DNA of 24,478 nucleotides from a virus. The position numbers and the translations under genes were made by a program. This document shows positions 2,937 through 24,042 of the stretch, in pieces. The stretch covers positions 1 through 24,478 of IMG/VR virus record IMGVR_UViG_3300035663_000103; one strand, given 5' to 3'. The notes under the pieces are model-generated. The model was not told where the DNA came from. It was given only the letters and a program-made list of their open reading frames with translations, and searched no databases. Each line of letters starts with the position of its first letter. The first letter of the stretch is position 1.

Positions 2937-4934
2937 ATGGAAAATGAAGGGATCATGGCGCTCCCTATGCCGGGGCCCGAGGAACGCGGATCACGGGCCG
3001 AGCGGCCGACCGTAGCGAGCACTGACTCTTACGATGCCGCGCTGACGGCGCTTGGCATGTCCGATCCCAACGCCTTGGCAGGCCTGCAAGGCGAACTCAG
3101 CCAGTCTTTGGCCGGCATTGAAATCGCTCCAGAGGAACTCAGCCTCATCATCCAGATGTTTGAGGAGCTGATCAACAATCCTCGCCGCTACAAAGAGCTC
3201 CGTTCGCAGATCATCCAACAGGGTGTTGTGGATGCCGGGGACTTGCCTGAAGAATATGACCTCGAGCTTTTGAGCACGATCCTCGCGGTTCTCAACGAGC
3301 TAAAGCTCTCGCAGATCCGTGGCGCACAGGCCCCGATGGCGATGGCTCCTGCCATGCAGGAGCCTGCTCCTCCCCCGATGCAGATGGCCGAGGGTGGTCT
3401 TGCCGACATGGCGCAGTACCTTGCCTCCAAGGGCCGCCGTGGCGACACGATGCTTGCGCACATCACGCCGGAAGAGGCGGAGATGCTCAAGCGCATGGGC
3501 GGCTCGGGGACGATCAACCCCGACACAGGGCTGCCTGAGTTCTACAAGAGGTTCTTCAAAAGAGTTTTCGGTGGCGTAGTGGACGCCGTCAAATCCGTCG
3601 TCAACGTAGCCAAGAAGGTGGTGGAGAGCCCTGTTGGGCGGGTACTGGCGACAGTCGGATTGGCCATGGTCCTCGGACCTACGGCCTTGGGCGCGACACT
3701 TGGCTCGGCAGGCACAGCGGCGCTGTCAGCCGGTGCAGTGACGTTGGCGGGTGGCGGCAACATGAAAGATGCCCTGATTTCCGGGGCGCTGGGCTACATT
3801 GGCGGTGGCGGCGACTTTGGAGGCCTCGGAAGCCCGTTGAAGGGGGTTTCGCAATTCCTGTCTCCAATTGCTGCGCCCGGAACTGCCTTGAGCACTGGCT
3901 TGAGCACAGGCCTCTTGGGCACTGGCGCAGGCTTGGCGCTGGGCATGAAGCCTGGCGAAGCACTCCGTTCGGGTGCAATGGCCGGTCTGACCGCCGGGGC
4001 GTTGCAAGGTCTCCAAGGCCCGCAACAGCCTGCCGGTGCGGCTCCGCAGGACGCGGCGGCGGCACAACCTGCTGGTGCAGAGGGCGCAGTCCCTGCGTCG
4101 CCCACTGCGTCGGCGGTTACTGGGACCGGCGCTCCAGGGGCTACGGGTCCGATCGGCACCGCTGCCGAGCTTGGACCTCCCGGAGGTTCGACGTTCCGGC
4201 CCGGAGTCGGTTTCAGCGAATATGCCGCATCTGGGGCAGCTCCTCCGAAGCCCGGCTTTTTCGACAACATCGGCCAGAGCCTGTCCAACACCTTCTCCCC
4301 CAACCGCCCTGGGCTGTCTCCGGATGCAGGGTTCTTCACGCGCTACGGCCCGCTCATGGCCGCAGGTGTGGGGGCAGCCACGCTAGCTGGCGGCATGAAG
4401 AAAACTCCCGGCGAGCCCGAGCCTTTGTACAAGACTTCTGCGTTGGAAGAAGAGTCACTAGCGCGCATGCGTGCCCGGCAACAGGATCTAGAGCAGGCGG
4501 GCTATGGGTTCTCGAGGAACCGCGCTGAAGCTGCGCCTCGGTCCCCGGTCCTCGTGCCGACGCCCTCGTATGCTCAGATGGAGCGCTCGCCCGTGCCTAC
4601 CGTCACCCCGACGGGCATCACGAACATGCCGGGCGGCGTTGCGCAACCTTATAACGTAGCAGGGCTCTACGGCATTCCTCTCTTGTACGGGCAACAGGCA
4701 GTACAGCGGGCACGCGGGGGTGAGATGAAGATGACGGAGTTCCCGCGCAAGACAGGCCCGATCAACGGTCCCGGCACGGGGACCTCCGACTCCATCCCGG
4801 CGATGCTGTCTGACGGGGAGTTTGTCTTCACGGCCAAGGCGGTGCGCAATGCGGGGAACGGCAGTCGGCGCAAGGGCGCGGCCCGCATGTACAAACTCAT
4901 GAAAGCGCTGGAAGGTGGCGCTGTAAAGGCGTAA
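2937..4934 (+). CDS. Virion protein with hydrophobic Gly/Ala segment, probable internal/ejection protein
   Basis: This 665-aa protein uses an ATG preceded by GGAAAGG. Residues 1-130 are acidic and helical. A Pro/Met-rich linker around 133-150 leads into M-A-E-G-G at 150-154. Residues 236-285 are strongly hydrophobic and rich in Gly and Ala (V-L-A-T-V-G-L-A-M-V-L-G and onwards), resembling a glycine-zipper membrane segment. A Pro/Ala/Gly-rich low-complexity stretch covers about 360-420. The last 75 residues hold A-R-G-G, then G-T-S-D-S-I-P-A-M-L-S-D-G-E-F-V-F-T-A-K-A-V-R and a basic helical end. From memory, this C-terminal block recurs in large virion proteins of aquatic phages. The hydrophobic core and the place between tail genes and giant low-complexity proteins fit an ejected internal virion protein. 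That role is inferred; no enzymatic motif was seen. Confidence 0.75.
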   Translation: MENEGIMALPMPGPEERGSRAERPTVASTDSYDAALTALGMSDPNALAGLQGELSQSLAGIEIAPEELSLIIQMFEELINNPRRYKELRSQIIQQGVVDAGDLPEEYDLELLSTILAVLNELKLSQIRGAQAPMAMAPAMQEPAPPPMQMAEGGLADMAQYLASKGRRGDTMLAHITPEEAEMLKRMGGSGTINPDTGLPEFYKRFFKRVFGGVVDAVKSVVNVAKKVVESPVGRVLATVGLAMVLGPTALGATLGSAGTAALSAGAVTLAGGGNMKDALISGALGYIGGGGDFGGLGSPLKGVSQFLSPIAAPGTALSTGLSTGLLGTGAGLALGMKPGEALRSGAMAGLTAGALQGLQGPQQPAGAAPQDAAAAQPAGAEGAVPASPTASAVTGTGAPGATGPIGTAAELGPPGGSTFRPGVGFSEYAASGAAPPKPGFFDNIGQSLSNTFSPNRPGLSPDAGFFTRYGPLMAAGVGAATLAGGMKKTPGEPEPLYKTSALEEESLARMRARQQDLEQAGYGFSRNRAEAAPRSPVLVPTPSYAQMERSPVPTVTPTGITNMPGGVAQPYNVAGLYGIPLLYGQQAVQRARGGEMKMTEFPRKTGPINGPGTGTSDSIPAMLSDGEFVFTAKAVRNAGNGSRRKGAARMYKLMKALEGGAVKA

Positions 4935-9063: not shown

Positions 9064-11604
9064 ATGAAAGATAAAGGTATGGGAAAACCCCCTGTCGATA
9101 ACGTCGGCATCATGCAAGGCTTCCTTGACATGTTCGAGGACGATCTCGAAAACGAGGGCGACGATCGGGATGAAGGCGAGATGATGGAGCGCCGCCCGGA
9201 TTCGCCTGAAATCCTCATGAACAACCTTCGCGGCGACATGCGCTCCATCGACGCTCGCCGCGAAGAGCTTGCTGACCTTGTCGGCTACGCGGCCGCCACC
9301 GAGACCCCTGAGCCGGTGCTCGCGATGCTTCAGCCTGTGCTCGCCCAACAGGGCGGTGGCGGGCTGGGCGGGTTGCCTCAGTCTGCGCCCATGGCCCAAG
9401 GGCCCCAGCCGCCGATGATGCCTCCGCCTGGAGGTGCACCGGGCGCGCCTCCCGGACCACCGCCCATGGGCCCCGGAGCAGGGCTCGGTGCCATGCCGCC
9501 TCCGGGCGCGATGGGAGCGCCCCCTGGGCCTCCGCCTGGGCCTCCTCCGGGCCAGCCGCCGGTTGGCATGGCGCGTGGCGGGTTCGTACAGCGTTTTCAA
9601 GAGGGGTCAGATGAGGAGGGCGTGACCCCTGTGGCAGAACCCTCCTCGGCAGCGATGTACAGCCCGGAAGTGCGCGATCTCTTGCGGCAGCGCGTTGAAA
9701 CGACGCTTGGGCAACAACCGCGAGAAGTGCCGAGCATTGAGTCGCTCTACGAGACCAAATTGCCCGTCTATCGTCGCCTGCTGGGCGATAACCAACAGAC
9801 AACCCAGTCACAGATGCTGTTTGACCTCGCGCAGCGCGCCTTTGGCTATGCGGCCAACGTAGACGAGCGGGGCCGCCCGATGCGGGGTGGCCAGCTTGCG
9901 CGCGTTGCCGGCGCATTCCAAGGGCTGCCTGCCACGATCGGTGCGCGGATTGGCGAGCTTGAGAAGGGCGAGCGGGCGGTCAAGTCTGCTGCGCTCAGTT
10001 CGGCCGAGAAAGAAGCGCAACGCATCATGGAATTCAACCAGCGCCTGCAAACCTCACAAGACAAGCTCTTGGGGGCGCTGTCAGGGCAGGCCGTCAGGGA
10101 AGGTGCAGACGAGCGCCGGGAACGCTTACAGCGTGAGGCCCTTGTGGCACGGACGGACCTGGAGAGGAACCGGCAGGAGGCTTTGACATTACGCAACCAG
10201 AATAACAACGACACGCGCCGTTTAGTGTCCGAGGCCAACAACATCGCAGAGGCCGAGCGCCAGCGTGAAGCATTGAATGCCAAGCTTCAGACAACCACGA
10301 TGAGCCTAGAGGCAAAGCAAGGCATTGCCAATCAGGTCAATGCGTTGAACGAGCGCATTGCCGGCATGAAGGATGCCTTGGGCCGCGCCAAGATCGGTTC
10401 TGCCGAAAGCATTGCCCAGGCCCGAGAAGTTGCCGCCATGGAGCGCTTGGACAAGCAGCTTGAGAGCCGCTTGCAGGTCGCTAACTTGGACAACGACACC
10501 AAGAAGGGGCTGGAGGCCGAGCGTCTTGCTCTGCGTGACAAGCTCGAAACGGCGCGGATGGATCTACAGGGCCGGATCGCGGACGACAAGAACCTTACCT
10601 CACGTTTGAACGCGCTGGATCGCAACGCGACCATGCTACAAATAGCGGCGGAGCGTGCTGCGGCGGCCGCGACGCCTGGATTCGGCAAAGGTTTGACGGC
10701 ACAGCAGCTCAATATCTTCTATCAGCTTTCTCCAAGCTTTGGTGCAAACACGGCAGGCGAGGAGGCTGACCGGATGTTTGAGACGGCGGTGGTGGACTAC
10801 ATCAACCGCAATACGGTGACCACAACGGATATAATGGGCGAGCGATCTACTCGTGTCCCCACACTTCCAAAGTTTGTTGTCACTGCGCTGACCGCGCGCG
10901 GACGTCAGGATCTCATTCCGCAAAGCGGCCGAGTGCCCCTCGGAGCACCGACCGTGGGCACAGCGCCCACAGCCACTGCGACTCCGACCACGGCTCAGGC
11001 GCAGGCCCCAGCTCCGGGAACAGTGACTCCTCCTGGACGTCCAGGGCTGGACACTAGGCCGTTTGAATTGACGCCGGAAGAGCGACAGTCCACCTTTTTT
11101 AACCTAGCTGAAAAAGGTACGGGCCCGGTTGCAATTGCTGGGTCTTTTCTCTCCAAATTCCCCGGCCTGGGAGGAATTGCGCCTGAACAGCAGTCGGCTC
11201 GAACTTTCTTGTCGGTAGCTGCCAACCAGATCAATCGATCCTTGTATGTGGGCGATCGGTTCACAGAGACTGAGCGCCAACAGATCCAAAACCAACTGGA
11301 CGCCCTGCCGCAGTTCATTGACAACCCGACTGCCTATCGCAACAGGCTGCTGGGTCTGGACAACCTGCTCGGCAATCTCGAACAACGGGCCATTCGCATT
11401 TACAACTCAGACCCTATGCCTGTAGACAGAATCCGCAAGGCAGCCGTCGATTTCGCAGAAGTCCGGAATCTTCGGGCCATGCTCGGCATGCCGCCACGGA
11501 TCAACAACGACCAGGCGGGGCAAGCCGCTTACAACGCGCTGCCTCCTGGGGCATACTTCATCCACCCGAACGGTAAGATTCATCAGAAAAACGCTCCGAG
11601 GTGA
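9064..11604 (+). CDS. Large virion protein with Pro/Gly linker and long coiled coil
   Basis: This 846-aa protein has an ATG preceded by AAGGGA. Residues 1-55 are acidic. About 55-100 is helical (G-D-M-R-S-I-D-A-R-R-E-E-L-A-D-L-V-G-Y), a segment I have seen in related aquatic-phage proteins. Residues about 100-165 are almost only Pro, Gly, Ala and Met. M-A-R-G-G lies at 169-173. Residues about 300-536 are long, charged and Leu/Ala-heptad-like, a probable coiled coil. A Pro/Thr/Ala linker follows (about 625-660), then a mixed helical domain ending in A-Y-F-I-H-P-N-G-K-I-H. The position among giant structural genes suggests an internal virion or ejection protein, but no enzyme signature is visible. 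Confidence 0.75.
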   Translation: MKDKGMGKPPVDNVGIMQGFLDMFEDDLENEGDDRDEGEMMERRPDSPEILMNNLRGDMRSIDARREELADLVGYAAATETPEPVLAMLQPVLAQQGGGGLGGLPQSAPMAQGPQPPMMPPPGGAPGAPPGPPPMGPGAGLGAMPPPGAMGAPPGPPPGPPPGQPPVGMARGGFVQRFQEGSDEEGVTPVAEPSSAAMYSPEVRDLLRQRVETTLGQQPREVPSIESLYETKLPVYRRLLGDNQQTTQSQMLFDLAQRAFGYAANVDERGRPMRGGQLARVAGAFQGLPATIGARIGELEKGERAVKSAALSSAEKEAQRIMEFNQRLQTSQDKLLGALSGQAVREGADERRERLQREALVARTDLERNRQEALTLRNQNNNDTRRLVSEANNIAEAERQREALNAKLQTTTMSLEAKQGIANQVNALNERIAGMKDALGRAKIGSAESIAQAREVAAMERLDKQLESRLQVANLDNDTKKGLEAERLALRDKLETARMDLQGRIADDKNLTSRLNALDRNATMLQIAAERAAAAATPGFGKGLTAQQLNIFYQLSPSFGANTAGEEADRMFETAVVDYINRNTVTTTDIMGERSTRVPTLPKFVVTALTARGRQDLIPQSGRVPLGAPTVGTAPTATATPTTAQAQAPAPGTVTPPGRPGLDTRPFELTPEERQSTFFNLAEKGTGPVAIAGSFLSKFPGLGGIAPEQQSARTFLSVAANQINRSLYVGDRFTETERQQIQNQLDALPQFIDNPTAYRNRLLGLDNLLGNLEQRAIRIYNSDPMPVDRIRKAAVDFAEVRNLRAMLGMPPRINNDQAGQAAYNALPPGAYFIHPNGKIHQKNAPR

Positions 11605-15228: not shown

Positions 15229-15886
15229 GGCGCTCCATCCAGCCGGCCTTGTAGTCCTCAAACTCTCGGCCGGCTGTGGTGAACTCCTGCGTGGTGCCGT
15301 CCTGCACGGCAACCAGGATCACGGCGAAGTCAATGTTGGTCCCGAACAGGCTGTCATGCGCAATGGCGTAGGCCGCAAGCTGGTGGTAGTAGTCCGTGAT
15401 CCATTGCGCGCGCTTCGGTTTCAACGCTTGCTTGAAGTCCACGATCGCAAGCTTGCCCCGGTACTGCGCCACCATGTCCGTGGTCCCTGCATAGCGATGC
15501 CCGTAGTGCAGTCCGACCTCAAAGCCCAGCACGACATCGATGTCCTTGAAGTGCTTGTTGATAAGGGCGAACGCCATTTGATGACCGCGCAAGGAGAGCC
15601 AGTCCTGGCCCACGGTCAACGGCTCATCGGCCAGGAATGATTCGATGGTTGCGTGCATAGTGGTGCCCACATAGGCCGCCTCGCGCTTGATCCGTTCTGC
15701 CTCTTCATGGCCCACGCGATCGGCCCATTCCTGAAGCTTTGCCTTGTCCTTGGTCCGATCGAGGATCGTCGTGACAGACGGTACGTTTTCAAACCCCGGC
15801 ACCTTGTAGACGCGGCCCGTCGCCGCATCGACGCGGGACAGGATGGGGTAGTCGAAGTCTTGCCGTTGACGGATCAGATGAGCCAT
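15191..15886 (-). CDS. PD-(D/E)XK exonuclease, RecB/Cas4-like
   Basis: This 231-aa protein should be a metal-dependent DNA exonuclease acting in phage recombination or replication. The superfamily residues are all visible: G74-T-T-M-H78, E123, G-T-T-D137, V-D150-F-K152 and the RecB-type Q169-L-A-A-Y173. Length fits stand-alone phage nucleases of this family. The ATG lies inside the 3' end of the upstream helicase gene (13-bp overlap), with GAGG about 10 nt before it. The two are therefore a coupled leftward operon in which the helicase could supply or remodel substrate. Its 3' end overlaps the last late gene on the other strand. Which polarity it degrades cannot be read from the sequence. Confidence 0.9.
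   Translation of the reverse strand: MAHLIRQRQDFDYPILSRVDAATGRVYKVPGFENVPSVTTILDRTKDKAKLQEWADRVGHEEAERIKREAAYVGTTMHATIESFLADEPLTVGQDWLSLRGHQMAFALINKHFKDIDVVLGFEVGLHYGHRYAGTTDMVAQYRGKLAIVDFKQALKPKRAQWITDYYHQLAAYAIAHDSLFGTNIDFAVILVAVQDGTTQEFTTAGREFEDYKAGWMERLKQAEAAALPSR
15240..15276. other. 9-bp perfect GC-rich inverted repeat at the convergent junction
   Basis: CAGCCGGCC at 15240-15248 pairs with GGCCGGCTG at 15268-15276 across a 19-nt loop. It starts 11 bp after the stop of the late operon and lies inside the nuclease coding region, where both arms encode Ala-Gly. There is no T-run on either side, so it is not a canonical intrinsic terminator; it could act as a pause site or 3'-end stabiliser. 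A coding by-product is possible. Confidence 0.4.
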
Positions 15887-17325
15887 TCTTTGAGGTCCTC
15901 GCCGAGCACTTGGGTTGCGATGTCGATCTTGTCACGGAGCGCCTTGACGATCTTCTCATCGACCGTGTTCGGTGCAATGAGATCGACGTAGGTCACGTTC
16001 TTCGTCTGCCCGATGCGATGCGCGCGGTCCTCGGACTGCAAGCGCTTCTCAAGGTCGAAGCTGTTGCTGTAGTAGATGACCGTGCTCGCCTCCGTGAGCG
16101 TGAGGCCGTAGCCGCCGGTGGATGGGTTGCCTACGAAGAAGCGGAGCTCGCTGTTGGGATCCTGGAAGTCGTTCACGATGCGCTCGCGCTCGTCGCTTGT
16201 CGTCTCGCCGTAGTAGGTCGCCACGCTCGTCATGCCGTAGGCGGTCTGCAAGTGGAACTTGATGTCTTCGATATCGTGGCGATAGGTCGCCCAGATGATC
16301 ACCTTGCCGTCTGTTTCTTCGAGTGTGGCGAGCAGCTCGTCGATGCGCTTGTTCGGAAGGCTCACCACCGTCCCGTCGTCGAGCTTCACGTGCCCGCAAG
16401 TGATCTGGTGCAGGCGCATGATTTGAGTGAGCGCGTTGACCGTTGAAACAAGGCCTCCGTCTATCGTCGCAAGGGCCACGGACTTCATCTGGTTGTAGGC
16501 CCTGACCTGCTCGTCTGTCAGCTCGACCTCGCGGCGGATGTACACCTTGTCCGGCAGGTCCAGGCACTCCTCTTTCTTCACGCGAAAGCTGAAGGTGTCG
16601 AGCATGAGCTTGAGCTCATCCAAGTGCCGATAGCCTACGACCTGCTTGAAGCTGTGGCTTGCGAGCTGGCGCTCGACCACCACTGCGTACCGCGCCTGGA
16701 AGGCGTAGTAGCTGTGGATGTTCAAGCAGTCGTCCGACAAGAACGCGCACTGCTGGTACAGGTCCATCGGGCTCTTGGTGACAGGAGACCCAGTCATGAT
16801 GCGCCTGTACCGTGCGCCAATGCCCACCTTCTCGGTGTTCTTGCTGCGGGCAGAGGTGTGGGACTTGATGGTCGTGCTCTCGTCGATCGCCATCAGCGCC
16901 TCGTGCGAAAGCAGGAAACGCGTGGCGAACGATGTGCCCTTCTGCGTGCTGAACGCTTCCACGTTCATGACCAGGATCTTTAAGTCCTCGGTGACTTCGA
17001 AGAGCCGATCGAGCGCCTGCTTTTCTGCCTTGCGTGGCGTTGCGGCCCACAGCGCCACGCGGTGCTCGACGTGGTCAGGCATGTGCTTGGGCAGTTCGAT
17101 GTTCACCCAGTTGCGGTACACGCCCTTGGGCGCTACGATCAAAGCGGCGTTGATCTTGCCCTTGTCGTAGAGCATCGCGATGTTGTTGATGAGCATGTAG
17201 CTCTTGCCCGTGCCCATCTCCGCGAAGAGGGCCGCTACGCGCGTGTTCCAAAAGCGTTCGAGATAAGCCGCTTGATGAGTGTAGGGCTTGTTCTTGAACG
17301 GGTACGTCGAGAGAAAATGGTCCAT
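15874..17325 (-). CDS. SNF2-type superfamily 2 helicase/translocase
   Basis: This 483-aa protein has the complete SF2/SNF2 motif set: Q-motif-like H17-Q18, Walker A E36-M-G-T-G-K41-S42, motif Ia around I-V-A-P-K, motif II D148-E149-S-T (DEST instead of DEAH), motif III T178-G-S-P181, motif V S-T-G-G-Y-G-L-T-L-T-E-A and motif VI R434-A-H-R-I-G-Q440. The HRIGQ form is typical of SNF2-like ATPases that translocate on duplex DNA. It is short for the group and has no extra DNA-targeting domain, as in phage versions. The ATG is preceded by AAGGAG six bases upstream (complement of 17332-17337). It is first in a two-gene operon with the nuclease. A role in recombination or replication-fork remodelling is inferred. 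Confidence 0.92.
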   Translation of the reverse strand: MDHFLSTYPFKNKPYTHQAAYLERFWNTRVAALFAEMGTGKSYMLINNIAMLYDKGKINAALIVAPKGVYRNWVNIELPKHMPDHVEHRVALWAATPRKAEKQALDRLFEVTEDLKILVMNVEAFSTQKGTSFATRFLLSHEALMAIDESTTIKSHTSARSKNTEKVGIGARYRRIMTGSPVTKSPMDLYQQCAFLSDDCLNIHSYYAFQARYAVVVERQLASHSFKQVVGYRHLDELKLMLDTFSFRVKKEECLDLPDKVYIRREVELTDEQVRAYNQMKSVALATIDGGLVSTVNALTQIMRLHQITCGHVKLDDGTVVSLPNKRIDELLATLEETDGKVIIWATYRHDIEDIKFHLQTAYGMTSVATYYGETTSDERERIVNDFQDPNSELRFFVGNPSTGGYGLTLTEASTVIYYSNSFDLEKRLQSEDRAHRIGQTKNVTYVDLIAPNTVDEKIVKALRDKIDIATQVLGEDLKEWLI

Positions 17326-18318: not shown

Positions 18319-19086
18319 ATGGCTAAGAATGACGTTGCAGTAAAAGCGGCGAGCACCGAACTCGCCATCCTCAGCGACCTCGAGCAGGATGCAGGCGCTG
18401 GTTTTGACGGCATGACGCAAGACGACTACGCGCTGCCGTTCCTGCGCCTGCTCACGAACACCTCACCTGAGGTGGGAGAGGTCGATGGCGCGATGCCGGG
18501 GATGATCTACAACACCGTCACGGGGCAACTCTACGACGGCAAGAAGGGCATCTATGTTGTCCCGTGCGCCTACGTCCGGCAGTACATCGAATGGGCTCCG
18601 CGTGGCCAAGGCACTGGCGCTCCGATCCACATCCATCCTGCCACGAGCGACATCCTGTCGAAGACGCACCGCGAGCCGGGCGACAACAAGGACTACCTCG
18701 ACAACGGCAACTACATCGAGAACACCGCCAACCACTACGTGATGATCGTCGATGAAGACGGCGTGCCGAGCCCTGCGCTCATCAGCATGAAGTCCACGCA
18801 GTTGAAGAAGTCGCGCAAGTGGAACAGCATGATGCAATCAGTGAAGATGCAGGGCAAGAACGGCCTCTTCACGCCTCCGATGTACAGCCAGATCTATCTG
18901 CTCACGACCGTTGCCGAGAGCAACGACAAGGGCAAGTGGTACGGTTGGGAGGTTGAGCGTTTCGGTCCGGTGGACAATGCAGGCCTCTATCAGAACTGCA
19001 AGGCCTTTGCGCAGTCGGTCTTTTCCGGCGACGTGAAGGTCAAGCATGAGGGCGCAGAGGGGGCCCCAAGCGACGCTCCGTTCTGA
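18319..19086 (+). CDS. Candidate phage ssDNA-binding / replication-associated protein
   Basis: This 255-aa protein starts at an ATG with AAGGA nine bases upstream. From about residue 30 it reads as a beta-rich domain: A-L-P-F-L-R-L-L, then G-M-I-Y-N-T-V-T-G-Q-L-Y, G-I-Y-V-V-P-C-A-Y and Y-I-E-W-A-P-R-G. A basic K-S-T-Q-L-K-K-S-R-K-W-N-S segment follows near 155-170. The protein ends P-S-D-A-P-F, which resembles the acidic C-terminal tip of bacterial SSB proteins (D-D-x-P-F type). It lies directly before the primase, helicase and polymerase genes. I do not recognise a canonical OB-fold signature, so ssDNA binding is an inference from tip, context and composition. Confidence 0.65.
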   Translation: MAKNDVAVKAASTELAILSDLEQDAGAGFDGMTQDDYALPFLRLLTNTSPEVGEVDGAMPGMIYNTVTGQLYDGKKGIYVVPCAYVRQYIEWAPRGQGTGAPIHIHPATSDILSKTHREPGDNKDYLDNGNYIENTANHYVMIVDEDGVPSPALISMKSTQLKKSRKWNSMMQSVKMQGKNGLFTPPMYSQIYLLTTVAESNDKGKWYGWEVERFGPVDNAGLYQNCKAFAQSVFSGDVKVKHEGAEGAPSDAPF

Positions 19087-19139: not shown

Positions 19140-20669
19140 ATGACAGATATCACCCGTTTCAAAGCAATCTTCAGCGGCCTCGATGTTGCCTATGGCACGT
19201 ACAAGATCGAGACGTCGAAAGAGAGCGGCAAGCAGGCAGGCAAGGCGGTTGTTGTCCGTAAGCCTCCGACCGATGACCTGTGGGCCAAGCACCTCGAAGG
19301 CGTGGAGCCTTCTCTTGGCATCATCCCCATCCGCGCAGACAACTCCTGCATCTGGGGCTGTATCGACATCGACCAGTATCCGCTCGACCACGCAGGGCTG
19401 GTGCAAAAGATTCGCAAGCTCGAGCTTCCGCTGGTCGTCTGTCGCAGCAAGTCCGGCGGTGCGCACGTCTTTCGCTTCTCCACCGAGCCCATGCCCGCTG
19501 CCAACATGCAGCGTTACCTCAAGGCCTGTGCAGCCGTGCTCGGTGAGGCAGGACGCGAGATCTTCCCCAAGCAGGCCGAGATCCTGGTCGAACGCGGTGA
19601 CACGGGCAACTTCCTGAACCTGCCCTACTTCGGCGGCGACCAGACCATGCGCTACGCCATCCGCGATGATGGCAGCGCCGCTACGCTCGAAGAGTTCTAT
19701 GAACTACATGCTCTGTGGTCACGGCCCCCGGACCACGAGCCACCCGAAGAACCCAAGAAGCCCGATCACCCGATCAAGGACGGCCCGCCATGCCTTCAGA
19801 CGCTTTGCACACAGGGCGTGCCTGAAGGAACACGGAACAACGCGCTCTTCAACATCGGCATCTACTTGAAGCGCCTGCATCCCGTGAACTGGGACGACGC
19901 ACTGTCTGAGCACAACTTCAAGTACGTTGCACCACCGCTCCCGAACAACGAGCTTCAGACCATCATCAAGCAGTTGCACAAGAAAGAGTACAAGTACAAG
20001 TGCAAGGACGCGCCGCTCAACCAGTTTTGCAATAGCGGCCTGTGCCGCACGCGCAAATACGGCGTGGGCGCAGACGGCCCCGACAGCCCGCAGATGTCAT
20101 CGCTCTCCAAGTACAACAGCGAGCCACCGCTCTGGTTTTTGGACATCAACGGCAAGCGCATCGAACTCGATACCGAGGCGCTCTTCAATCAAGCCGCATT
20201 CCAGAAGGCGTGCTTGGAGAAGATCAACGTGCTGCCGCCCACGCTCCGTAAGCAAGACTGGGAAGGCACACTGAATGCGCTCTTGCGCGAGATGGTGGAG
20301 AGCGAGCAGATCACCGAGGCCCCAGAGGATACGAGCCTCACTGGGCGCTTCAACGACCTCTTGGAAGAGTTCTGCGCTCACCGGCAACAGGCCATGGACC
20401 GTGATGAGTTGCTCATGGGCCGGCCTTGGGTGAACGAAGAAGAGGCGCAGGTGTATTTCCGGATCAAGGACCTCGAAGCGCACTTGCTTCGCAGCAACTT
20501 CAAAGGCCTATCCACTGCGAAGATCGCGCAGCGGCTGCGTGAGCTGGGCGGTGAGCCGATCAGCCTCTTCATCAAAAACAGGACGGTGCGCTGCTGGCAC
20601 ATGCCTGCGTTTGCCAAACAGGACGCGCCTTTCGAGTCGCCTGAACAGAAGAAAGGGAGCCCGTTTTGA
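19140..20669 (+). CDS. Archaeo-eukaryotic-type primase (AEP) with Cys-containing C-terminal region
   Basis: This 509-aa protein should make primers for phage DNA synthesis. The AEP core shows the metal-binding D76-I-D78 after a hydrophobic strand, the second motif R-S-K-S-G-G-A-H109-V-F and a third G156-N-F-L-N-L-P-Y region, an arrangement like TOTE-type AEPs. A P-P-C218 element then precedes a helical stretch (G-T-R-N-N-A-L-F-N-I-G-I-Y-L), followed by C288, C297 and C302. This resembles a PriCT/PriL-like domain and may hold Zn or Fe-S. Residues about 325-509 are a further helical domain, ending K-K-G-S-P-F. The ATG has AAAGAAG just upstream. The stop overlaps the next start (TTGA), linking it to the helicase. 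The primase call is strong; primase-polymerase activity and the metal centre are inferred. Confidence 0.85.
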   Translation: MTDITRFKAIFSGLDVAYGTYKIETSKESGKQAGKAVVVRKPPTDDLWAKHLEGVEPSLGIIPIRADNSCIWGCIDIDQYPLDHAGLVQKIRKLELPLVVCRSKSGGAHVFRFSTEPMPAANMQRYLKACAAVLGEAGREIFPKQAEILVERGDTGNFLNLPYFGGDQTMRYAIRDDGSAATLEEFYELHALWSRPPDHEPPEEPKKPDHPIKDGPPCLQTLCTQGVPEGTRNNALFNIGIYLKRLHPVNWDDALSEHNFKYVAPPLPNNELQTIIKQLHKKEYKYKCKDAPLNQFCNSGLCRTRKYGVGADGPDSPQMSSLSKYNSEPPLWFLDINGKRIELDTEALFNQAAFQKACLEKINVLPPTLRKQDWEGTLNALLREMVESEQITEAPEDTSLTGRFNDLLEEFCAHRQQAMDRDELLMGRPWVNEEEAQVYFRIKDLEAHLLRSNFKGLSTAKIAQRLRELGGEPISLFIKNRTVRCWHMPAFAKQDAPFESPEQKKGSPF

Positions 20670-22165
20670 ATATCACCAAGGTCTTCGGTCCTCCTGGCAG
20701 TGGCAAGACGACGTTCCTGCTGGGCATCGTTGAACTCGAACTCGAGTCCGGCGTGAATCCTGCCGCCATCGGCTACTTTGCCTTCACGCGCAAGGCCGCG
20801 AACGAGGCCAAGGAACGTGGCGTCGCGAAGTTCCCGCACTTGAAGCCCGACACTGACTTCCCGTGGTTTCGGACGCTACACAGCCTTGCCTACCGCTGCT
20901 TGGGCCTTGGCACAAAGGACATGATGGCGGTCGAGCACTACCAGGAGTTCGCACGCGAGGCAGGCATCACGCTCGCGACCGATACCGGAGAAGAGGATTT
21001 CATTGTCAAGACGGACCACCCGATTCTGAACGAGATCAACATCGCACGGATCAAGGGCCTGGACCTGCGTGAGCACTACAACCGCTCAGAGATCGAAATC
21101 GAGTGGCACTACTTCGAATTCATCGAGCGCGCGTACCGGCACTACAAAGACGCCCGCAACCTTCTGGACTTCACCGACCTCTTGGAGTTGATCGTCCAGC
21201 AGCCGGAGCGCTTGCCACGGCTCGAGGCGCTCATCATCGACGAAGCACAGGACCTTTCACCCCTGCAATGGAGGCTGGTAGAGCAACTCGCGTTGCGCTC
21301 CCAGCGCTGCTTTCTGGCAGGCGACGACGACCAGGCTATCTACACCTGGGCCGGGGCCGATGTCGAAAGCTTCCTGAACTTCAAAGGCCAGATCAAAGTG
21401 CTCGAGCAGTCGTACCGCGTGCCCGCAAAGATCCACCAGCTCGCCAACTCCGTGGTCCATCGGATCAAGAAGCGTCAGCCCAAGGCGTGGCGCGCTCGCG
21501 AAGAGACAGGCAGCATCCACTACTACCAGGACTGGCACGACGTCAACGTCGCTCAAGGCGACTGGCTGATCCTCGCGGCCGCCAACTACATGCTCTCGGA
21601 CATGTACGAGTGGTTGAAGAGCCAAGGCCTCCTCTTCGAGCGCTACGGACAACGGTCCATCCCTGAGTCCGTGCTCACGGCCGTCATCGGCTGGGAGCGC
21701 CTGAGGAAGGGCCAGGAAGTGCCTTTTGAAGTTGTAAGGACTGTTTACAAGTACATCGACACCCGGTTCGTGAAACACGGCTACAAAGGCCTGCGCACGG
21801 CCGACCCGGCTGCCATGTACACCATCGATTCTTTGAAAGAAAAGCACGGACTTCTTTCTACAGAAATCTGGCACCAGGCGCTCACCAAGATCGCGGAGAA
21901 CCAGCGCCACTACCTGATCGCGGTGTTGCGCCGTGGAACGCGGCTCACGGGCAAGGTTCCGATCAAGCTCTCCACGATTCACGCAGCCAAGGGCGGTGAG
22001 GCGGACAACGTGCTCCTGATGGGGGACTTGACCACCAAGTTCGCCCGAGAGTACGACCGCAACGCAGACGACGTGAACCGGCTGCTGTACGTCGGCATCA
22101 CCCGTGCCAAACAAACTCTGCACATCGTGCTCCCGAAGGATGAGCGCAAAGGATTTCGGCTGTGA
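20666..22165 (+). CDS. UvrD/Rep-like superfamily 1 helicase
   Basis: This 499-aa protein is an ATP-dependent DNA helicase, probably the replicative or recombination helicase here. It starts at TTG 20666 in a TTGA overlap with the primase stop, with AAAGGGAG about 8 bases upstream. Motifs in order: Walker A G8-P-P-G-S-G-K-T, motif Ia A-F-T-R-K-A-A-N-E-A, F-R-T-L-H-S-L-A-Y, motif II D192-E-A-Q-D196, motif III G-D-D-D-Q-A-I-Y-T-W-A-G-A-D, motif IV E-Q-S-Y-R-V-P, motif V T-I-H-A-A-K-G-G-E-A-D and motif VI Y-V-G-I-T-R480-A-K. All key residues are present. It is shorter than cellular UvrD (about 700 aa), with reduced accessory subdomains, as in phage relatives. Its stop overlaps the polymerase start (GTGA). 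Confidence 0.93.
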   Translation: MNITKVFGPPGSGKTTFLLGIVELELESGVNPAAIGYFAFTRKAANEAKERGVAKFPHLKPDTDFPWFRTLHSLAYRCLGLGTKDMMAVEHYQEFAREAGITLATDTGEEDFIVKTDHPILNEINIARIKGLDLREHYNRSEIEIEWHYFEFIERAYRHYKDARNLLDFTDLLELIVQQPERLPRLEALIIDEAQDLSPLQWRLVEQLALRSQRCFLAGDDDQAIYTWAGADVESFLNFKGQIKVLEQSYRVPAKIHQLANSVVHRIKKRQPKAWRAREETGSIHYYQDWHDVNVAQGDWLILAAANYMLSDMYEWLKSQGLLFERYGQRSIPESVLTAVIGWERLRKGQEVPFEVVRTVYKYIDTRFVKHGYKGLRTADPAAMYTIDSLKEKHGLLSTEIWHQALTKIAENQRHYLIAVLRRGTRLTGKVPIKLSTIHAAKGGEADNVLLMGDLTTKFAREYDRNADDVNRLLYVGITRAKQTLHIVLPKDERKGFRL

Positions 22166-24042
22166 CCAAACGCGACTTCAACACCATGCCCCTCTTTCCG
22201 CGACAGTCGGAGTGGATTCCTCCACAGTCTTTCCCCAACTTGTCCACCGCCAAGGAGATTGCAATTGACCTCGAAACCTGTGATCCCAACATGGAATCCA
22301 TGGGCCCAGGCTGGCCTCGTCGTGACGGCCACATTGTTGGGTACGCTGTTGCCGTTGACGGATGGGCAGGCTATTTTCCTGTTGCTCATAGCGGCGGCGG
22401 TAACCTTGATCGTCGGATTGTGGAGCGATGGATGGCCGAGGTCCTTGCGACGCCGGCTGACAAAATCTGCCACAACGCCTCCTACGACATAGGCTGGCTT
22501 CGCGCTTCAGGCTTCACGGTCAACGGCCGCATCATCGACACCATGCTTGCCGCGCCGCTCTTGGACGAGAACCGCTTCAGCTACGCGCTCAACAGCCTGG
22601 GCTTTGACTACCTTAAGGAGACCAAGTCCGAGCAGGGATTAAAGGAAGCCGCACAGGACTTCGGCATCCACGCGAAGAAGGAGCTTTGGAAGCTGCCGGC
22701 CATGCACGTGGGCGAGTACGCCGAGCAGGACGCCGCGCTCACGCTCAAGCTCTGGCACCACCTGAAGGCGCTCATGCGGTCCGATGACGTCGAGTTCATC
22801 TTCAACCTGGAGACGGAGCTACTGCCCATCCTCATTGACGTTACCTATCGAGGCATCCGCTTCGATCATGCCAAGTGCGACCGCCTTGTCCAGGACATGC
22901 GCCAACAAGAAAAGCAGATCTTGCAGACGATCAAGGAGCAGGCCGGAGAGCAGGTCGATATCTGGGCGGCGGCGAGCATCGCCAGAGCGTTCGACAAACT
23001 GGGTATTGAGTACCCGCGCACGGCTCAAGGCGCACCGAGCTTCACCAAGAGCTTCTTGGACAGCCACGACCATCCGATGGCCAAGATGATCGTGGAGGCG
23101 CGAGAACTGAACAAGACCCACGGCACGTTCTTGACACCCTACCTCGAGCATGCGCGACGCGACGGCCGCATCCACACGCACTTCAACCAAATGCGAAACG
23201 AGGACGGCGGCACGGTCACCGGCCGCCTGTCCGCCGCCAACCCAAACTTGCAGCAGGTTCCGGCCCGGCACGAGATCATCGGGCCGATGGTGCGCAGCCT
23301 CTTCCTACCTGAGGAAGGCGACCTCTGGGCCGCGAACGATTTCTCCTCACAAGAGCCGCGCCTGCTGGTGCACTACGCCACGCTCCTCGGGCTCCCTGGC
23401 GCAGAGAAGATGGCGGACGCCTACCGCGCCGACCCCAACACCGACTTCCACCAGATGGTCGCGGACATGGCCGGCATCAAACGCAAGGCCGCCAAGACGA
23501 TCGGCCTGGGGCTCATGTACGGCATGGGCAAACAGAAGCTGGCCAACAGCCTGGACCTGCCCCTGGAAGAGGCGAGCGAGCTCATCGGCACCTTCCACGC
23601 TAAGGTCCCGTTCCTGCGCGGCACGGTGGACGCGGTCATGCGCCGCATCGAGCACCCGGCCTCCGGTGGCGCGATCCGCACGCTCTTGGGCCGCAAGTGC
23701 CGCTTCCCGCTCTGGGAGCCCGTGCAGTACGGCGTGAACAAGGCGCTGCCGTACGAGCAGGCAATCATGGCCTACGGACAACGGATCAAGCGTGCCGGCA
23801 CCTACAAAGGCCTCAATCGCCTCATCCAAGGCTCGGCCGCCGACCAGACCAAGTCCGCCATGGTGGCGCTCCACAAGGCCGGCTTCAAGCTCTTGCTCCA
23901 GGTCCATGATGAGTTGGCCGTGTCGGTCAAAACACGGGACGAGGCCCGCGAAGCAGCGAACATCATGACCAAGGCGGTGAGTCTGGAAGTGCCCTCACGC
24001 GTTGATGTTGAAACTGGACCTTCCTGGGGCGAGGCGGCATAA
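22162..24042 (+). CDS. polA: Family A DNA polymerase with 3'-5' exonuclease domain
   Basis: This 626-aa protein is the phage replicative polymerase. The GTG at 22162 overlaps the helicase stop (GTGA). Proofreading motifs are intact: Exo I D36-L-E38, Exo II N105-A-S-Y-D109 and Exo III Y186-A-E-Q-D190. There is no 5'-3' nuclease domain, as usual for phage PolA. The polymerase domain has the S-A-A-N-P-N-L-Q-Q-V-P element, motif A D393-F-S-S-Q-E398-P-R, motif B R441-x3-K445-x7-Y453 and motif C H582-D583-E584. The residue equivalent to E. coli F762 is Leu449. Motif A differs from the usual D-Y-S-Q-I-E-L-R. It closes the primase-helicase-polymerase operon and is followed by an intrinsic terminator. 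Confidence 0.97.
   Translation: MTKRDFNTMPLFPRQSEWIPPQSFPNLSTAKEIAIDLETCDPNMESMGPGWPRRDGHIVGYAVAVDGWAGYFPVAHSGGGNLDRRIVERWMAEVLATPADKICHNASYDIGWLRASGFTVNGRIIDTMLAAPLLDENRFSYALNSLGFDYLKETKSEQGLKEAAQDFGIHAKKELWKLPAMHVGEYAEQDAALTLKLWHHLKALMRSDDVEFIFNLETELLPILIDVTYRGIRFDHAKCDRLVQDMRQQEKQILQTIKEQAGEQVDIWAAASIARAFDKLGIEYPRTAQGAPSFTKSFLDSHDHPMAKMIVEARELNKTHGTFLTPYLEHARRDGRIHTHFNQMRNEDGGTVTGRLSAANPNLQQVPARHEIIGPMVRSLFLPEEGDLWAANDFSSQEPRLLVHYATLLGLPGAEKMADAYRADPNTDFHQMVADMAGIKRKAAKTIGLGLMYGMGKQKLANSLDLPLEEASELIGTFHAKVPFLRGTVDAVMRRIEHPASGGAIRTLLGRKCRFPLWEPVQYGVNKALPYEQAIMAYGQRIKRAGTYKGLNRLIQGSAADQTKSAMVALHKAGFKLLLQVHDELAVSVKTRDEAREAANIMTKAVSLEVPSRVDVETGPSWGEAA

Follow-up and report, generated by a model that had tools for sequence, protein, structure and literature searches.

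Phage AEP primase with a probable PriL-like initiation domain

A 509-aa protein encoded in a stretch of viral DNA (IMG/VR record IMGVR_UViG_3300035663_000103, 24,478 nucleotides, hereafter the window) is probably best explained as a phage replicative AEP primase with a PriCT/PriX/PriL-type initiation domain and a single metal site that is most likely a [4Fe-4S] cluster. Judging from its sequence, this compact chain appears to combine the two halves of a primase and probably contains a metal centre. The gene and its catalytic half are as follows:

19140-20669, + strand: AEP primase gene, 509 aa, ATG start (PF22548 and PHROG 21866 matches)
19140-19724, + strand: AEP catalytic domain, about residues 1-195 (CAPP profile match and Foldseek)
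19365-19373, + strand: motif I, D76-I-D78 (invariant, 133/133 representatives)
19464-19466, + strand: motif II, His109 (invariant, 133/133 representatives)

The product of this ORF is an AEP primase. AEP-TOTE (PF22548) scored 44.3 bits against the curated Pfam cut-off of 27, and PHROG 21866 ("primase") matched residues 1-489, that is, the whole length, with 332 bits (E 2e-98). Among solved structures, the Prim-Pol domain of Marinitoga CAPP was the sole significant profile match (E 2e-14, profile positions 3-200), and a phmmer search of the PDB with the single 509-aa protein returned no match. The full-length AlphaFold model, built from 39 family members (mean pLDDT 88, pTM 0.55), was also matched by CAPP in Foldseek (7nqd, E 1e-10), with RepB' and the cyanophage S-2L PrimPol lower in the list. 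The AEP half is thus closest to CAPP/TOTE, away from PriS, and the AEP core recognised in the initial annotation was confirmed. All residues that it had named were also found in place, namely D76-I-D78, H109, P216-P217-C218, G230-T-R-N-N-A-L236, C288, C297, and C302. D76, D78, and H109 are conserved in every one of the 133 representatives, which were obtained from 234 sequences by 90% clustering. No near-identical phage record was found for the whole window.

Four cysteines are conserved as a set

Downstream of the catalytic domain, the protein has a second domain with four conserved cysteines, followed by an alpha/beta region:

19779-20069, + strand: four-cysteine PriCT/PriL-CTD-like domain, about residues 214-310 (PriX model match, sub-threshold PriCT_1, PriL cysteine register)
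19785-19793, + strand: P216-P217-C218, first putative cysteine ligand (invariant in three alignments)
20001-20003, + strand: C288, second putative cysteine ligand (invariant)
20028-20030, + strand: C297, third putative cysteine ligand (invariant; separated from C288 by 8 residues in 91/91)
20043-20045, + strand: C302, fourth putative cysteine ligand (invariant; separated from C297 by 4 residues in 91/91)
20094-20666, + strand: C-terminal alpha/beta region, residues 319-509, ending in a possible winged helix (model secondary structure, weak matches)

P216, P217, C218, C288, C297, C302, and G308 were kept in all of 11, 39, and 91 aligned sequences, the 11 being diverse phage homologues with 23-76% identity. 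The four cysteines were a selection condition for the 39- and 91-sequence sets, and the unbiased count is that of the clustered representatives. The initial annotation had tied its proposal to conservation of the cysteines among homologues, and they proved invariant in every representative with the whole C-terminal module (118/118 at 90% clustering and 40/40 at 60% clustering; this count takes in L192, whose third cysteine reads X through an ambiguous base, and leaves out L231). The 509-aa protein has further cysteines, with invariance limited to these four, and their conservation is far above chance.

In divergent relatives with a different C-terminal part the four cysteines are missing together; none of them occurs in the Rhizobiales proteins L214, L215, and L232 or in longer alphaproteobacterial AEP-helicase proteins. 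L231 (4641-6233, from an archaeal Thermoplasmatales metagenome bin) retains the first two, but the segment that carries the other two is missing, which may reflect natural site loss or a sequence error. In L211 (7917-10310, Woeseiaceae bin), the AEP domain and four-cysteine module run on into a helicase-like C-terminal part, giving a protein of 798 aa. On the AEP-domain tree the cysteine-module label needs about 6-8 changes, of which well-supported branches force only 1-2; this count suggests that the C-terminal module was probably swapped or lost more than once. Since the four cysteines come and go as a set, their distribution points to one metal site for all four.

Relationship of the four-cysteine domain to PriL, PriX, and PriCT

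The cysteine spacing was compared with that of 29 archaeal PriL sequences collected via PF04104. The 509-aa protein has C-x69-C-x8-C-x4-C, and its phage family has x69 in 77/91, x8 in 91/91, and x4 in 91/91 sequences; the Fe-S cysteines of archaeal PriL are spaced by x71 in 24/29, x8 in 29/29, and x5-6 in 21/29. Pro-Pro directly precedes the first cysteine in both. The initial annotation had likened the PPC element and cysteines to the PriL Fe-S site, and the match holds in order and spacing, the interval between the second and third cysteines being eight residues throughout both sets. It had also called the arrangement compressed, which needs correcting, as x69/x8/x4 nearly equals the x71/x8/x5-6 of archaeal PriL.

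In an unforced profile-profile alignment, C218, C288, C297, and C302 fell on the four PriL cysteines. The score was equalled by 1/1000 column shuffles, by 3/1000 when the cysteine columns were fixed, and was reached by 44/1000 when GPPC and the cysteines were fixed; with PPC and the cysteines masked, 80/1000 shuffles scored as well, so there is no significant similarity beyond these positions. According to the shuffles with fixed or masked positions, the sequence evidence for PriL likeness is the PPC and cysteine pattern, and hardly more. HHalign, run against PriL in local, global, and other modes, gave a low probability (3.6-5%, E about 0.01). Its local matches spanned PPC only, and solely a low-stringency realignment aligned all four cysteines, in the same register as the unforced alignment. 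PF04104 had no match in the window's record, with four archaeal controls positive, and the PriL N-terminal domain is absent from the 509-aa protein. At the level of sequence comparison, the likeness to PriL is hence stronger in spacing than the initial annotation supposed and weaker in sequence than a claim of fusion needs.

Residues 192-330 modelled alone (AlphaFold, 91 sequences) reached a pLDDT of only 77 and a pTM of 0.63. The top PDB match of this domain model among 350,542 chains was PriX (4wyh; prob 0.77, rmsd 2.6, TM 0.38/0.51, the latter by target, E 1.2), and PriX in the PriSLX complex (5of3_C) ranked third with a weak E of 1.9. As PriX chains are few in the PDB, this ranking of a predicted model is notable despite the weak E-values. 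PriX is related to the PriL C-terminal domain but carries no cluster (PMC5700102). A domain-only profile found no match in the PDB, hence no solved Fe-S protein. Viral predicted structures matching the domain model included a DNA primase small subunit (E 3e-5), a PriCT-1 protein, and several Prim_Pol proteins, and PriCT_1 (PF08708) matched residues 225-277 below threshold (16.0 bits against a cut-off of 21.1, E 0.009). Of the profile comparisons suggested in the initial annotation, AEP-TOTE was over its cut-off, PriCT_1 remained below threshold, and PriL was not recovered by PF04104 and had only a low HHalign probability.

Homology of PriCT-1, PriCT-2, PriX, and PriL Fe-S_N has been proposed by Kazlauskas and colleagues (PMC5862659). 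If this homology is accepted, PriCT and PriL are not exclusive options for the domain, in which a PriL-type cysteine set would enclose a PriCT-type core lying between C218 and C288. Farther downstream, the model predicts the secondary structure H442-451, H459-468, E472-478, and E481-489, and weak Foldseek matches of the C-terminal region were to winged helices (7wh4 and 1fyl); on this model, residues 421-489 may form a winged helix.

Nature of the putative metal centre and relation to a PriS-PriL fusion

Three sequence features favour a [4Fe-4S] cluster over Zn in the four-cysteine site: it opens with PPC, CxxC knuckles are missing, and the cysteines are spaced as in PriL. A serious though less likely alternative is that the same AEP-PriCT primase binds one structural Zn through its four cysteines and performs no redox chemistry. 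Four-cysteine sites commonly hold Zn, and the sub-threshold PriCT_1 match is in keeping with this model, as are some mobile-element primases in which a Zn-binding domain occupies the position of PriCT (PMC5862659). The site itself argues otherwise, as it lacks a CxxC knuckle and its four cysteines, spread across 85 residues, fall into two halves and are spaced much as in PriL, the first of them preceded by PPC as in PriL. PriCT with Zn had been offered in the initial annotation as the alternative to PriL; it gains the sub-threshold PriCT_1 match at residues 225-277 and, under the homology proposed in PMC5862659, ceases to exclude PriL.

The same annotation suggested a PriS-PriL-like fusion. 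The AEP core, the PriL-like cysteine set, and PriX as top model match support the likeness, whereas a strict fusion is not supported, as a PF04104 match and a PriL N-terminal domain are missing. That the protein is a true PriS-PriL fusion descended directly from a captured cellular heterodimeric primase appears very unlikely: the four-cysteine register with PriL and the PriX-like fold of the model agree with it, but these two absences and an AEP half nearest to CAPP/TOTE rather than PriS speak against it, and similarity outside PPC and the cysteines is not significant. As a broader reading, we tentatively suggest that this may be a widespread phage primase family in which the catalytic subunit is fused to a true [4Fe-4S] initiation module of the PriL type, intermediate between the cysteine-less PriCT-1 and the cellular PriL Fe-S domain.

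The primase gene lies among replication genes

The neighbours of the primase gene in the window include:

18319-19086, + strand: Pam3 gp34-like gene, upstream of the primase (PF23977, E 5e-68)
20666-22165, + strand: UvrD/Rep-type SF1 helicase and probable partner, its gene overlapping the stop codon of the primase (PF00580, E 3e-33)
22162-24042, + strand: family A DNA polymerase (PF00476, E 3e-62)

This arrangement recurs in viral contigs with enough flank, in which a UvrD-type helicase was found downstream of the primase within 3 kb in 145/148 cases and PolA near it in 129/132. The Pam3 gp34-like gene, whose product may be a replication accessory factor, was present in all 142 viral contigs with room for it. 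Searches of 13 relatives (48-68 kb) for a DnaG N-terminal domain and for DnaB found neither, and phage DSL-LC04, which is complete, has no second primase in its annotation. The protein is likely the own replicative primase of a tailed phage. A role instead as a component of a TOTE-type or CRISPR-associated conflict system, to which the AEP-TOTE Pfam match and CAPP as nearest structure might point, is highly improbable, as the TOTE proteins of chromosomes (L266-L268) fuse AEP to an SF2 helicase and have no PPC/four-cysteine module, the CAPP profile NF040561 gives the phage protein 21 bits against a cut-off of 200, and the neighbours are a helicase and a polymerase; the TOTE role was rejected because of the architecture (no fused helicase) and the replisome neighbours.

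Other features of the window were also recorded. An SNF2-type helicase is encoded just upstream of the replication genes (15874-17325, - strand), and most relatives have one close to the primase. Long ORFs at 2937-4934 and 9064-11604, with no Pfam match at E 0.01, probably encode virion proteins. The family A polymerase (22162-24042) matched DpoZ_1, an aminoadenine-incorporating polymerase, with 331 bits, below the cut-off of 500, and a search of 13 relatives for PurZ found none. Salmonella phage PMBT28, which has a homologous primase, carries an adenylosuccinate synthetase gene beside PolA. As others lack this gene, the primase module occurs in both phage types.

Proposed mechanism

In the model below, we infer the identity of the metal, the triphosphate binding, and the partner contacts. 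One further residue is central to it:

19833-19835, + strand: R232, predicted phosphate ligand of the initiating NTP (conservation, helix start, PriX/human comparison)

R232 is Arg in 121/123 aligned representatives and lies in the model at the N-terminal start of helix 232-246. An NTP bound to PriX has its phosphates at the first turn of the central helix, where R72 matches human R306 (PMC5700102), and human Arg-306 is essential for initiation (PMC5700102; PMC5333051).

The AEP domain (residues 1-195) would join nucleotides in a metal-dependent active site formed by D76, D78, and His109. Through R232, where its central helix starts, the small helical domain (about residues 214-310) probably binds the initiating nucleotide by the 5'-triphosphate and keeps it against the template, and this hold would allow the AEP domain to make the first dinucleotide. 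C218, C288, C297, and C302 are predicted to bind a single metal centre and thereby hold the two ends of the helical domain together. As in PriL, a [4Fe-4S] cluster is the most likely occupant; the alternative is the structural Zn discussed above. The C-terminal, possibly winged-helix region may bind DNA or a partner, while the UvrD helicase would open the duplex and the phage PolA extend the primer.

The role of the Fe-S cluster in priming is disputed, and it has been argued to be unneeded in Sulfolobus (PMC5700102). A single-chain phage enzyme with a PriL-like cysteine set, together with cysteine-less relatives built on a similar AEP domain, would offer a small and tractable test of this role. 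If the family is indeed a [4Fe-4S] intermediate, its natural relatives without all four cysteines would allow the contribution of the cluster to priming to be asked. The family would also lend sequence support to the proposed PriCT-PriL relationship, for which structure and weak profile matches have so far been the main basis (PMC5862659).

Comparison with known primases

Primase fusions of a similar kind are already known, namely PolpTN2 and CAPP, and an open-literature search found no paper describing a PriL-type cysteine motif in this phage family. The closest relatives are the PHROG 21866 phages (e.g., DSL-LC04, 023Pt_psg01, PMBT28, JeffCo, and HTVC023P), whose proteins are whole-length homologues with 23-76% identity. 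They have the same four cysteines in the eleven aligned and the same primase-helicase context, without essential difference, and thus constitute the family itself; they are annotated merely as "primase" or hypothetical protein.

CAPP of Marinitoga has the closest solved AEP domain, and its C-terminal domain is PriCT-like with conserved cysteines (PMC8211822). CAPP differs in its N-terminal TPR domain and CRISPR-Cas neighbours, whereas the phage protein begins with AEP at residue 1 and no cas genes were among its identified neighbours. A Bacillota-like phylum-wide search for true CAPPs, sought for comparison of the C-terminal cysteines, found none over the cut-off.

Residues 225-277 show a sub-threshold resemblance to PriCT-1, and here the cysteine set frames this PriCT-1-like core; relatives such as L228 and L214 are without the set. 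The phage protein shares with archaeal PriL CTD/PriX the PPC start and four cysteines spaced by x69-71/x8/x4-6, and PriX is the top, though weak, fold match of its domain model. Archaeal PriL and PriX, however, are separate subunits, PriX is without a cluster, and the phage protein is without a PF04104 match. PolpTN2 of the Thermococcus plasmid pTN2 combines a PriS-like domain with a four-cysteine PriL-like domain and a C-terminal winged helix, and the protein is brown, consistent with Fe-S (PMC3973330, PMC5862659). At 923 aa it has a longer PriL-like domain and a separate PriCT-1, and its motif II His is not conserved; in the phage protein, a single compact domain would take both the PriL-like and the PriCT-1 parts.
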